Assembly (NCBI GenBank): GCA_017937925.1
Contig: JAGBCQ010000002.1
Span: 1 to 39,115 of the forward strand
Direction: 5' to 3'
From: Paraprevotella sp.
GTDB taxonomy: Bacteria > Bacteroidota > Bacteroidia > Bacteroidales > Bacteroidaceae
DNA: 39,115 nucleotides
Shown: piece after piece, positions 2,903-5,924 of the stretch
How positions within the stretch are numbered: the first letter of the stretch is position 1
How the letters are laid out: the number at the start of each line of letters is the position of its first letter
The notes under the pieces: generated by a model
The model's database searches: none
Told to the model about the DNA's origin: nothing
What the model saw: only the letters and a program-made list of their open reading frames with translations
Program-made: the position numbers and the translations under genes

Positions 2903-3841
2903 TTACATGAGGCCTTTTGCCCTGCGTTCTGTTATAGCCCGTTCTACATCGGATTTCAGAAGGAGGTTACTGACACCTATCCGTTCCTTGGTGATATGAT
3001 ACCGTTTGATGATGGCCGCAAGGTTGGCGCTGGTCACGTTCATCAACCGACATGCTTGCGCTGTCGTATAAAAGCGGTCATCGTTCCGCAAGTCTGGTTT
3101 GAACCATTCGTCAAGATGTTGCTTGGAGTAATAGGTGATGCCGTATTCTCTCTTGGTCGGAATCTTATGGCGATAGGAACAGGAGCGCAGTGAAGGGGCG
3201 CTCATGCCATATCTTTCAGATGCCTCTGATGCAGTGAGCCATTCTTCAATGTTCTCTACATCTACCGCTGTACCGAAGAACTCATCCGTATGATGTTTGC
3301 TATAAAAGGTTCTGCCTGAAATCCTGCAAGTGGGGATTCCGTTGCGTTTGGCACTGGTATAGAGCCACGACTGCCTGACCTTGTATATCCTCATCACATC
3401 CTCACCGCTGTAGTATTCCATCGGTTCGTTTGATGTTCCTTTTCCCTTTTGTTGAGATTTACAGACGCTTATCTGATTGGCTTTGGGATGTTGGCAAGGG
3501 ATTACCCGTCTGTATGGATTTCCTTCCAGCATGTCTTCTATGTCCTTCCTACGGATAATGGCCATTCGGTCACTGATGCGTGAGGCATGGAGCTTTCCTT
3601 GTGCCACCAGCTTGTAGATATATTGCCGGCTGCATCCCATCAACGTGGATGCTTGTGAGAAAGTGAAATAGTCTTGCTGTCGCAAATTAGCTATTGGTGC
3701 AAGTTCATTGAGGAGGCTGTTCCTTTTCTTCTTTATCTCCTGCTTGGCGGCTTCGGCACATTCAATACAGCAGTACTTTTTCACCGCGCTCTGTGTGCTG
3801 AACTCCTTGCCGCAATAAAGGCATTTCTTGGTTCTTTTCAT
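2903..3841 (-). CDS. Zinc-ribbon protein with four excisionase-like HTH modules
   Basis: I chose the ATG at 3841 because the protein then begins with a complete metal-binding-like motif, MKRTKKCLYC...KKYCCIEC (C7, C10, C24/25, C28). An in-frame upstream extension to 4024 runs through leader repeats and is unlikely. The 312-residue product has four helix-turn-helix modules of the HTH_17/excisionase type at about 57-108, 142-190, 201-250 and 256-305. Each has the pattern aromatic-(T/S)-xx-(Q/E)-A, a turn, then a basic helix and a short wing ending in a Ser/Arg-Lys strand. Small excisionases usually carry one such module. The neighbouring integrase suggests a role in excision directionality or regulation of the element; this is inference. 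Confidence 0.72.
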   Translation of the reverse strand: MKRTKKCLYCGKEFSTQSAVKKYCCIECAEAAKQEIKKKRNSLLNELAPIANLRQQDYFTFSQASTLMGCSRQYIYKLVAQGKLHASRISDRMAIIRRKDIEDMLEGNPYRRVIPCQHPKANQISVCKSQQKGKGTSNEPMEYYSGEDVMRIYKVRQSWLYTSAKRNGIPTCRISGRTFYSKHHTDEFFGTAVDVENIEEWLTASEASERYGMSAPSLRSCSYRHKIPTKREYGITYYSKQHLDEWFKPDLRNDDRFYTTAQACRLMNVTSANLAAIIKRYHITKERIGVSNLLLKSDVERAITERRAKGLM

Positions 3842-3908
3842 GTGATTCTCTTTTTTGCGTTGAACAATCTGTCGTATTCCACGCAAGAGAGTGTACGGTA
3901 GTAAATGC

Positions 3909-4022
3909 TTGTCAACTGTTGTCGCCTCTGTGCACGATATGGCGGGACTTGCATATATGCCCCAAATTTGTCTTCTCATGTAAACCGTTGTCAACCGGTG
4001 TAAACGGAGTACACGATATGAC
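3909..4022. repeat. Two imperfect 35-bp direct repeats in the leader of the four-HTH gene
   Basis: Copies lie at 3909-3943 and 3988-4022, 79 bases apart. They share TTGTCAAC at one end and CACGATATG at the other, with a variable middle; 25 of 35 positions agree. They lie between the promoter at 4065-4096 and the start codon at 3841, so they are transcribed. They may be operators for the HTH protein, arm-type binding sites for the integrase, or both. The rest of the 347-base gap between this gene and the BspA-like gene holds only the promoter and a T/G-rich stretch at 4150-4185. Confidence 0.55.
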
Positions 4023-4064
4023 AAAAAATAAGCCCCGTAATTTCTCTGCGGTAGAAATACGTGG

Positions 4065-4188: not shown

Positions 4189-5028
4189 CTAATTACATTC
4201 ATAGAACGCATAGTATCCAATGCTTATCACACTGTTGGGGATGGTGATACTTGTCAGTCTGGTGCAATCACAGAACGCTTGGTCTCCAATGCTTATCACA
4301 CTGTTCCCAATGGTGACACTTGTCAGTCCGGTGCAATTTAAGAACGCTTGGTCTCCAATGCTTGTCACACTGTTCCCAATGGTGACACTTGTCAGTCCGG
4401 TGCAATTTAAGAACGCTTGGTCTCCAATGCTTGTCACACTGTTGGGGATGGTGATACTTGTCAGTCCGGTGCAATCACAGAACGCATAGCTTTCAATGCT
4501 TGTCACGCTGTTGGGGATGGTGATGCTTGTCAGTCCGGTGCAACTACCGAACGCACCATCACCAATGCTAGTCACACTGTTAGGTATGGTGATGCTGGTC
4601 AGTCCGTGGCAACCTGAGAACGCACCATCACCAATGCTAGTCACACTGTTAGGTATGGTGATGCTTGTCAGTCCGTCGCACACATTGAACGCTAGGTTCC
4701 CAATGCTTGTGACGCTGTTTGGGATGGTGATGCTTCTCATCCTAGAGCAACAATAGAACGCTTGGTTCCCAATGCTAGTTACGCCATTTCCAATAGTACA
4801 TTTCATTATATAGAAACTATGGTAATACCATGGAGTACGATTATTATTATTTTCATCATAATCTTCCATCTTCCCACTACCCGTAATCTCTAGCAATCCT
4901 GTTCCTGTGTCAAGCGTCCAATTGACATTTGCGCCACAAGAACCGCTATACACCTCAGCATAACTGCGTGCAGATGTAAACAGTAAGAGCAGCACAGCGA
5001 ACCAATAAAATAAGTAATTGCGTTTCAT
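4189..5028 (-). CDS. BspA-like leucine-rich repeat secreted protein, probably truncated
   Basis: The 279-residue product has a signal peptide (residues 1-24, ending in ARSYA), a ~50-residue N-terminal module with the [16 protein letters not shown] motif common at the start of BspA-type proteins, and about nine 23-residue LRR_5 repeats of the form [21 protein letters not shown]. Such proteins are surface or secreted adhesins in Prevotella, Tannerella and relatives. The protein ends at AFYECN, in the middle of a repeat, with no capping region and no C-terminal sorting domain. The stop lies next to the mobile element, so loss of the 3' end by element insertion or a deletion is plausible. Nothing in the sequence shows what it binds. 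Confidence 0.85.
4273..4479. repeat. 69-bp tandem DNA repeats inside the BspA-like gene
   Basis: Units at 4273-4341, 4342-4410 and 4411-4479 encode three 23-residue LRRs. The first two differ by a single base (A/G in GCTTATCAC versus GCTTGTCAC); the third departs in its middle and at its end. Less exact units continue to about 4790. The in-frame 69-base period permits copy-number change without a frameshift. Confidence 0.9.
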
Positions 5029-5098
5029 ACGCTACAAAAGTTTTAGTGCTTACCACTTCTCCCTGCGTCAGCGGTTATAATATAATAAGGTATGGAAC

Positions 5099-5410
5099 AA
5101 AAAAGACGTGGGAGAAACTTCCTTGCTTATCCCACCGACTAGGCCTTCGCATTGCCCTCCAACCGAGATAAGCAACTTAGCCAGCCCACGCCATTGCGTA
5201 TTATAGGAAATATGCATCAACCTTAGGGCTGATGACATACGGATATAATACACCCAACGCGGACGCTTCGTTGCGATATCTTCAGGTTGATCAAGTTTGC
5301 GAAGTTGAGTCGGTTGAAGATAACGTTTTGAAAACGTCCTTTCATGCCCTTTCGGGCATAGTCCATTGATGTTTTAACCAACGCCCGCCCCTCCGGGTAG
5401 GCTAAGTCAG
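5099..5410 (-). ncRNA. Candidate ~310-nt structured noncoding RNA
   Basis: This gap between the BspA-like gene and mce has no convincing protein but, read on the minus strand, a promoter box, a series of hairpins and a terminator. From 5' to 3': a G/C-rich hairpin at about 5383-5402; ATGCCC-GAAA-GGGCAT, a GNRA tetraloop, near 5343-5358; ACGTTTT/AAAACGT near 5322-5337; a long interrupted hairpin at 5251-5198 with GTATTATA/TATAATAC at its base and CATCA/TGATG near its tip; and a terminal domain in which CCCACG (5112-5107) closes with CGTGGG (5190-5185) outside a perfect 9-bp TTGCTTATC/GATAAGCAA stem, followed by six Ts (5104-5099). It is not tmRNA, RNase P RNA or SRP RNA as far as hallmark motifs go. 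It could be a solitary regulatory RNA or a remnant of an RNA-bearing transposon. Confidence 0.5.
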
Positions 5411-5412
5411 TA

Positions 5413-5420
5413 CAAAGATA
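5413..5420 (-). promoter_or_regulatory. -7 box of the candidate structured RNA
   Basis: TATCTTTG on the minus strand fits TAnnTTTG and lies just upstream of the first hairpin; transcription would start near 5407. It follows directly after the mce terminator. No good -33 element is visible. Confidence 0.4.
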
Positions 5421-5453
5421 GTGATAAAAGAATAAGTAGGAGAATGTTCTCGC

Positions 5454-5519: not shown

Positions 5520-5924
5520 TTAGTGTTCGCAAAGCTCTGTCAATACACCGCAAGTAGATTTCGGGTGCAAGAAAGCGATTTGTAATTTCTCTGCTCCCAA
5601 ACGGGGGGCTTTGTCAATCAAGCGTATCTCTTTGCTCTCGCATTCTGCCAAAGCATTAGCTACACCGTCTTCTACAGCGAATGCCACATGGTGAACACCG
5701 CGACCGCCCTTTTCCAAGAATTTGGCAATGGCGCTATCTGGGCTCGTTGGCTCCAATAATTCCAATTTAACTTCACCCACTTTCAAGAAAGCGGTCTTAA
5801 CTTTTTGGTCAGCTACCTCTTCAATGTTGTAGCACTTCAAACCCAATACGTTCTCAAAGTAAGGTAATGCTTCCTCGATGCTCTCTACGGCAATACCCAA
5901 ATGTTCGATATGCGAAATTTTCAT
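5520..5924 (-). CDS. mce: Methylmalonyl-CoA epimerase
   Basis: This 134-residue VOC-fold enzyme interconverts (R)- and (S)-methylmalonyl-CoA in the succinate-propionate pathway, a standard route in Bacteroidales fermentation. The sequence follows the family closely from IEHLGIAV to the C-terminal VLTELCE. The metal ligands expected for the fold are visible: H8 in the first betaalphabetabetabeta unit, Q40 in VADQKVKT, a His in GVHHVAF (78/79) and E130 in LTELC. The length is typical of the family. The gene has its own -7 box upstream (5975-5982) and a strong terminator, so it appears to be monocistronic; the TonB receptor upstream is separated from it by 97 bases. Confidence 0.95.
   Translation of the reverse strand: MKISHIEHLGIAVESIEEALPYFENVLGLKCYNIEEVADQKVKTAFLKVGEVKLELLEPTSPDSAIAKFLEKGGRGVHHVAFAVEDGVANALAECESKEIRLIDKAPRLGAEKLQIAFLHPKSTCGVLTELCEH

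Follow-up and report, generated by a model that had tools for sequence, protein, structure and literature searches.

What does the minus strand hold between a glyoxalase-family gene, which we take to be mce, and a gene for a BspA-type leucine-rich-repeat protein? An earlier note on this DNA, written from the letters alone, proposed a novel structured RNA of ~310 nt at 5095-5424, either a standalone regulatory RNA or the RNA component of a decayed transposon (RNA-guided or of the IS200/IS605 type). The note suggested a search of Rfam, a search for homologues with compensatory changes in their stems, and a look at the genes that flank them. We find that the structured RNA is real and conserved. 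Judging from its many copies, it is a cis-regulatory leader with its own promoter and is unlikely to be a stand-alone RNA or a transposon relic. Comparison of these copies brings out a family, its place ahead of genes, pairing for each of two folds, a "latch" hairpin, and "barcode" helices. We believe that the family probably consists of cis-acting, two-state transcription attenuators.

The RNA in the window

By the window, we mean the whole stretch of DNA that was analysed (39,115 nt). The minus strand of 5095-5424 has a minimum free energy (MFE) of -132.2 kcal/mol vs. -92.9 +/- 5.1 kcal/mol in 100 dinucleotide shuffles (z = -7.7), while the fold of the plus strand is weaker relative to shuffles (z = -3.9). 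The parts that the earlier note had read from the letters are present (Table 1): a -7 box right behind the terminator of mce, several hairpins including one with a GNRA tetraloop, a long interrupted hairpin, and a terminal nested stem followed by six Ts. The TAnnTTTG box TATCTTTG is presumably the Bacteroidetes -7 element. The note set the 3' end of the RNA too early, as conserved sequence that coevolves with the terminal stem runs past the U-run to ~5048. The leader occupies about 380 nt of the minus strand (~5412-5029) and reaches almost to the ATG of the BspA-type gene at 5028.

We also note a tyrosine recombinase (Phage_integrase, Phage_int_SAM_5) at 1682-2800 on the minus strand. Together with two genes close by, the BspA-like gene and one for a helix-turn-helix protein (HTH_17, 2903-4024), it may belong to an integrated element.

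Table 1. Features of the leader and its surroundings, in window coordinates.
Feature	Position	Strand	Basis
Glyoxalase-family gene, upstream of the terminator below	5520-5924		family search
Terminator stem preceding the -7 box	5492-5461	-	terminator scan
Promoter -7 box TATCTTTG, TAnnTTTG type	5413..5420	-	sequence
5' hairpin GCCUACCCGGAGGGGCGGGC, variable among copies	5383..5402	-	sequence, fold
Hairpin AUGCCCGAAAGGGCAU, GAAA tetraloop	5344..5359	-	sequence, fold
5' domain, whole	5258..5339	-	alignment pairing
5' domain: Pb stem	5338-5333/5267-5262	-	alignment pairing
5' domain: Pg stem	5322-5313/5286-5277	-	alignment pairing
5' domain: local hairpin with 9-nt kissing loop	within 5258..5339	-	alignment pairing
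Barcode helix h1, 5' strand (partner 5141-5134)	5307..5314	-	covariation
Kissing helix h2, 5' strand CUUCGCA (partner UGCGAAG, 5151-5145)	5298..5304	-	98-100% paired, 168 copies
Barcode helix h3, 5' strand (partner ~5163-5158; register uncertain across copies)	5285..5291	-	covariation
Rod strand CGCAACG (partner AGUUGCU, 5177-5171)	5269..5275	-	94% paired
Antiterminator strand GUCCGCG, end of 5' domain	5264-5258	-	alignment pairing
Apical interrupted hairpin, variable in sequence and length	~5251-5198	-	sequence, fold; four columns pair well
3' domain, whole	5106..5191	-	alignment pairing
3' domain: terminator-like stem T	5191-5185/5112-5106	-	alignment pairing
3' domain: A stem, inside T	5173-5165/5133-5125	-	alignment pairing
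3' domain: hairpin GGGC/GCCU, inside T	5157-5154/5144-5141	-	alignment pairing
U-run CUUUUUU (DNA CTTTTTT) after T	5099..5105	-	sequence
Latch hairpin	5048..5072	-	coevolution test
Latch loop GGGAGAAG, complementary to UUUCUCCC (5117-5110, 3' arm of T)	5063-5056	-	sequence
Gene behind the leader: BspA-type leucine-rich-repeat protein, 279 aa	4189..5028	-	Pfam LRR_5, E 3.3e-69

Searches for known RNAs and for a reading frame

No Rfam 15 family matches the window at its gathering score, and at loose thresholds the window copy has weak matches only, far below that score. At 20 further loci, the matches to Rfam 15 fall outside the element. More specifically, there is no match to the T-box leader in the window or within the element at those 20 loci; RNase P, SRP, and 6S RNA have no match at gathering score in the window and none within the 20 further copies; and ARAGORN finds no tRNA or tmRNA genes in the window. 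This agrees with the earlier note, which saw no hallmarks of tmRNA, RNase P, SRP, or 6S RNA. Within the open-access literature that was searched, we found no description of the leader RNA. The family is probably new, and it is absent from the curated Rfam 15 library.

We also considered and rejected a protein-coding frame. Read from a fixed anchor, the three frames run through without a stop in 8, 14, and 22 of the 168 copies, and the lengths of the elements fall into the three frames at 65, 52, and 51 copies. When only the 5' domain is considered, 48, 41, and 59 of the 168 copies have an open frame, vs. 29-32 for shuffled sequences, and none of the three frames stands out. The earlier note was right to dismiss two short overlapping frames as genes: no protein is conserved across the 168 copies. 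Given the lack of an Rfam 15 match or a conserved frame, and the abundance of compensatory pairs described below, its claim of a novel structured RNA is supported.

A family in the Bacteroidales

With blastn, we found three copies in the window's own genome; counting that genome, 17 of 101 relatives have matches. We aligned the 3' half of 28 blastn-derived sequences, whose consensus fold contains compensatory pairs, and built a covariance model, R1, from this alignment. R1 finds six copies in the own genome and has matches in 43 of the 101 relatives and in 57 of 295 genomes of the order, which are partly the same genomes as the relatives. Among 345 genomes sampled from the phylum, the only one with an R1 match is the own genome, so this sample gives no occurrence outside the order. 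At least 4 matches are present in 27 of the 43 positive relatives, with a maximum of 12. In 38 of the 43 positive relatives and 39 of the 57 positive genomes of the order, the best match has an E value lower than 1e-6; R1 matches with weaker E values are less sure, and 7 of 177 are opposite-strand shadows at 27-31 bits.

A degenerate pattern gives, among the matches listed, Bacteroides, Prevotella, Paraprevotella, Parabacteroides, Phocaeicola, Xylanibacter, Odoribacter, and Muribaculaceae; many of the records listed are metagenome-assembled genomes (MAGs), and the genera are taken from record titles. Culturable carriers among these matches are Paraprevotella clara, Bacteroides caecigallinarum, and Xylanibacter rarus. 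Pattern-bearing MAG contigs that are labelled as Firmicutes, Clostridia, or Lachnospiraceae are probably binning errors. Overall, homologues with abundant compensatory changes in their stems do occur in the Bacteroidales.

We collected 170 distinct copies after dropping 17 of 187 loci as repeats of the same places. Our main alignment is a sequence-only MAFFT alignment of 168 of these (two had too little flank), with an effective number of 148. In a later expansion, 9 of 121 loci were not added and 7 of the 112 additions were copies already in the set, and 273 copies were compared. In three copies from the own genome (L001, L002, and L003), the leader, the latch region, and the start of the protein look as if they were duplicated together. 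The third own-genome copy lies near the end of a contig and has no placeable ORF behind it.

Position, promoter, and the genes behind the leader

The nearest ORF of 80 aa or more shares the strand of the leader in 156 of 163 cases on the downstream side, as compared to 88 of 141 on the upstream side. We could place an ORF behind 164 of the 170 copies (some of the other six are near contig ends), and for 107 of the 164, the distance from the end of the R1 match to the start of the ORF is 50-89 nt. TAnnTTTG is found upstream of 140 of 168 copies vs. in 12% of random 210-nt windows. By a crude rule, 57% of 162 proteins behind the leader have a signal-peptide-like start, vs. 21% of 52 upstream neighbours. 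This arrangement, together with a latch that lies past the U-run and coevolves with the T stem (see below), speaks against a standalone RNA.

We scanned two sets of downstream proteins against protein families. After leaving out 14 of 164 and 1 of 100 ORFs, these contained 150 and 99 proteins; seven loci in the second set repeat loci from the first, and families were cut by E value and not always by the curated score. Among the families listed, of which there are at most 25 per list, are BspA-type LRR_5 (9 of 150 and 4 of 99), DUF4595 (6), LytTR (3), sigma-70 ECF (2), type III methyltransferase models (2 and 1), SspB models (1 and 1), DUF4007 (1 and 1), ZorA2 (1), MADS6 kinase (1), UpxY (2 of 150), CsgG (2 and 1), and KdtA-like (1). 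Cys-Xaa-Xaa-Xaa radical-SAM target peptides account for 4 of the 150 and 9 of the 99, with at least one locus in both sets; the one member given in full scores 36.5 bits, which is below the curated cut-off of 50. The identities of these genes point to no particular ligand.

Two types of small protein recur behind the leader. Cys-rich peptides that start with LQSRREFFKKAAKGALPILGA (NCBIfam Syntroph_Cxxx, radical SAM targets) are found at L011, L029, L135, L211, L221, L231, L232, L239, L284, L289, L292, and L293. Cro-like proteins of ~70 aa (IGxxI...QGRTVTWFARQL.C.R.NVYKIF), which we found by eye, are at L012, L044, L094, L105, L122, L148, L210, L212, and L242.

We give almost no credence to the idea that the RNA is left over from a mobile element, that is, from a decayed IS200/IS605 or RNA-guided transposon. 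The element is multi-copy, and a phage-integrase-family gene lies at 1682-2800, but a relic would not be expected to have strong two-sided covariation, a retained promoter and latch, or a position that is tied to gene starts. The genes behind the copies differ, and no nuclease or transposase is among the families listed for the 150 and 99 downstream proteins. As for other mobile DNA, one consensus-like copy had no blastn match among the records of 50,697 phages and 72,556 plasmids, but the exact leader pattern matches three IMG/VR contigs (L306-L308). The ORF behind L307 looks like an elongation-factor-Tu protein; there is one GTP_EFTU member in that protein set.

Two putative competing folds

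The 168-copy alignment supports two putative folds that would be mutually exclusive. Fold 1 consists of local stems and ends in the terminator-like stem T and the U-run. Fold 2 is a long rod in which the two halves of the leader pair with each other and T's 5' arm is taken up. The strongest covariation in the alignment is between the loop regions of the two halves.

For fold 1, the proportion of cells paired across the 168 copies is 96% for Pa, 97% for Pb, 81% for Pg, 78% for the local hairpin, 94% for the A stem, 95% for GGGC/GCCU, and 88% for T (register -1). For fold 2, it is 89-99% per pair for h1, 98-100% for h2, 94% for GCAAC/GUUGC, and 85% for the antiterminator (register -1). Slid controls for the helices that we rely on are mostly at 20-55%; isolated values for Pa, T, and GGGC/GCCU reach 58-76%. 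As aligned, h3 is weak, with 54% paired vs. 36-43% in slid controls, but 62% one column off. The apical stem is 42% paired vs. 34-53% in slid controls; four of its columns reach 77-89%, and most of it fails to align. A further possible local hairpin, GCGUUGC/GCAAUGC (0.95 paired at -1), is not used in our model. Because one arm of T and one arm of the antiterminator hardly vary, the support for these two helices is that pairing has been kept rather than two-sided change.

The folds compete for bases at several places: Pb and T each overlap the antiterminator, the A stem overlaps GCAAC/GUUGC, Pg overlaps h1, Pa overlaps Pb, and T overlaps the latch. The rod helices are nested and form one rod. 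Within it, h2 joins two 9-nt hairpin loops, and it could also form within the first fold as a kiss. The kissing loops of L058 and L125 carry a rarer compensated seed, UCUAGC/GCUAGA, beside CUUCGC/GCGAAG and UCUCGC/GCGAGA.

The U-run is well conserved: TTT is found within 9 nt behind T in 165 of 168 copies, and 151 of 168 have at least 6 Ts in 9 nt. A simple terminator scan misses T because its loop is long (~70 nt) and branched. Mutually exclusive terminator and antiterminator helices with a U-run, which is the arrangement of an attenuator, thus seem to be present. Alternatively, there may be one fixed tertiary structure that uses parts of both pairings.

A fixed RNA could also modify the polymerase so that it reads through long operons. 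Leaders of some surface-polysaccharide operons work by such processive antitermination. The two UpxY antiterminators are encoded behind our leader, and so are parts of multi-gene defence systems, for example ZorA2 and SspB. We nevertheless consider this explanation very improbable: it would leave the competing terminator and antiterminator pairings unexplained, and the element also precedes short genes, such as those for the Cro-like proteins.

Energies, the latch, and a proposed mechanism

Of 161 copies (7 of the 168 were not indexable), 153 have a rod that is more stable than their terminator fold. The difference averages 11.7 kcal/mol, with no credit given for the kiss, and it is below 10 kcal/mol in 66 copies. 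We also traced MFE folds of the growing transcript for three copies. These are equilibrium folds and not kinetics. The closed 5' domain forms first, and the rod appears as soon as the kissing loop, GUUGC, or the strand that pairs with the antiterminator is present, ahead of the 3' arm of T. Because the energies favour the rod as the default, termination would need a helper.

The latch is a conserved hairpin past the U-run, shortly before the start codon, and it coevolves with the 3' arm of T. Across 168 copies, the pairing energy of this arm with its own latch region averages -13.1 kcal/mol, vs. -10.5 kcal/mol with mismatched partners. In controls, ten shuffle means ranged from -10.2 to -10.7 kcal/mol, and the reversed own region gave -11.2 kcal/mol. 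The own latch region is among the best 5% for 22% of copies, and its median rank is 0.18. The coevolution is clear on average and modest per copy.

If the leader is an attenuator, we propose that it would work as follows. The RNA would start at its own promoter, and the 5' domain would fold on itself first (Pb, Pg, and the hairpin with a 9-nt loop). Once the 3' half was made, its 9-nt loop would pair with the first loop (h2, 7 bp) and nucleate the switch. This contact would zip up through h1, h3, and GCAAC/GUUGC into the long rod, in which a GUCCACG-like strand would capture the 5' arm of the terminator, and the polymerase would continue into the gene. The hairpin after the U-run would take up the freed 3' arm of T. 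If, on the other hand, the 5' domain were held closed, then the 3' half would form the A and T stems and transcription would end at the U-run. Three steps of this scheme are inferred: termination at T, the role of the rod as the fold that lets the polymerase read on, and a signal from the cell that decides between the two.

As the latch is made after the U-run, it would not block termination in that round, and it may act on translation. This raises the question of whether the same leader controls translation or RNA stability, with the U-run as a linker. We think that this is unlikely, although the latch loop coevolves with the T arm despite being made after the U-run, and the latch sits shortly 5' of the start codon. 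In that case, the latch would gate ribosome access or protect the mRNA. A linker would not need its T-rich run to be kept as it is, and the antiterminator strand is kept as well. We continue to prefer transcription attenuation.

Barcode helices

The strands of h1 and h3 are highly variable and yet remain paired, and they flank the near-constant h2 contact. We computed the duplex energy of the first half with the second half. It is -38.8 kcal/mol for own halves (168), -20.0 kcal/mol for halves that were crossed within genomes (584), and -19.0 kcal/mol for those crossed between genomes (3,921).

Barcodes may diverge after duplication. L001, L002, and L003 are recent paralogues, and pairs of them differ at 19 of 33, 24 of 35, and 20 of 35 barcode positions (57-69%), while elsewhere they differ at 20 of 283, 28 of 286, and 38 of 288 positions (7-13%). 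The Fisher p values for this excess are 1.5e-11, 6.4e-14, and 2.5e-8; these and our other barcode p values are nominal, as the two strands within a helix depend on each other and the same element can enter several pairs. Among 16 hand-picked pairs, six (including the three from the own genome) have a barcode excess at p < 0.05 and ten have none. Among all 30 pairs that are at most 20% divergent elsewhere, the barcode is the more divergent part in 19. For pairs that are at most 30% divergent elsewhere, the divergence of the barcode minus that of the rest is +0.28 within genomes (13 pairs) and +0.15 between genomes (58 pairs; p = 0.015). For the 15 of those 58 pairs whose downstream proteins are at least 60% alike, it is +0.02 (p = 2e-4 vs. 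same-genome pairs). So it appears that orthologous loci mostly keep their barcodes. In bins of core identity below 0.9, with all pairs included, same-genome and different-genome pairs look alike.

Some distant copies share a barcode. With repeats removed, 44 of 37,128 pairs among the 273 copies differ by at most 15% in the barcode, and in 24 of these 44 the hairpins have strongly diverged (core divergence 0.17, barcode divergence 0.09). At least 11 of 13 barcode pairs are shared in 46 pairs of copies, vs. none in column shuffles, which ignore descent. Some of the copies that share a barcode are from different genera; the genes behind these copies differ, and the DNA upstream of them is not similar. 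Because 22 compared pairs were mostly chosen for similar barcodes, finding p < 0.05 in 6 of the 22 overstates conservation. Also, no barcodes are shared in 29 within-genome pairs, but as only ~0.6 would be expected, we do not claim a depletion.

From these comparisons, we read the barcodes as addresses of loci that would be kept in descent and changed upon duplication. Alternatively, gene conversion of the core that leaves the barcodes alone may account for the pattern, and this is the main rival to our reading. Tentatively, we suggest that a constant seed with private barcodes might keep each leader pairing with its own second half. The barcodes could perhaps also avert pairing with the terminated leader RNAs of paralogues, and we put this forward with equal caution.

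The kissing loops also bear on whether the main product could be the terminated RNA of ~310 nt, with the gene being secondary, and with the RNA acting in trans through its loops on leaders or mRNAs. The many copies per genome, the constant loop sequence, and the strong complementarity of the two loop strands would fit with this, but the same-strand gene behind most copies and the latch past the U-run suggest action in cis. Also, the 17-nt h1+h2 strand of the window has no second site in the own genome with up to two mismatches. We consider a trans-acting product to be quite unlikely, and we favour a leader that acts on its own gene.

Relation to known systems

Transcription-attenuating riboswitches and T-box leaders are long 5' leaders with exclusive helices around a terminator. 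Like them, our element is a long conserved 5' leader with exclusive helices at a terminator-like stem and U-run, and it precedes several genes per genome. Unlike them, it has no Rfam 15 match, its halves zip into a long rod, it has barcode helices, and its T arm has an extra partner past the U-run. ColE1 RNA I/RNA II and CopA/CopT are plasmid antisense systems that use kissing loops. They resemble our element in that a loop-loop contact can be extended to a long duplex that changes the fate of a transcript, and in that specificity is coded in sequence. However, our element is a single transcript with a near-constant seed (h2), and the flanking helices carry the specificity. The leaders of capsule operons in Bacteroides are under the control of UpxY antiterminators. 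These are also leaders of surface genes in the Bacteroidales, and two of the 150 proteins behind our element match UpxY, but most of the genes behind it are unrelated to capsules.

A microbiome survey (PMC8040213) describes short candidate RNAs from Bacteroidetes, such as the 108-bp HMP2_1881 near radical SAM genes, and our element likewise precedes radical-SAM target peptides. Compared by description alone, the candidates that we saw in that survey do not include a long two-state leader. In the transcriptome of B. thetaiotaomicron (PMC7366714), 13.5% of mRNAs have a 5' UTR of over 100 nt.

If our interpretation is correct, this would be a large, many-copy family of structured leaders in major gut and rumen genera that is missing from the curated RNA library. 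Because the leader precedes genes for adhesins, radical-SAM target peptides, small regulators, and defence (DNA methylases among them), all of these functions would come under one kind of control through its signal. With the barcodes, one could test directly whether selection acts on the specificity of RNA-RNA pairing between paralogues in one cell. As barcodes appear to be kept in orthologues, to recur across genera, and to be replaced after duplication, a cell might control its genes for surface proteins, peptides, and defence by a set of RNA switches that are insulated from one another or else cross-wired on purpose.
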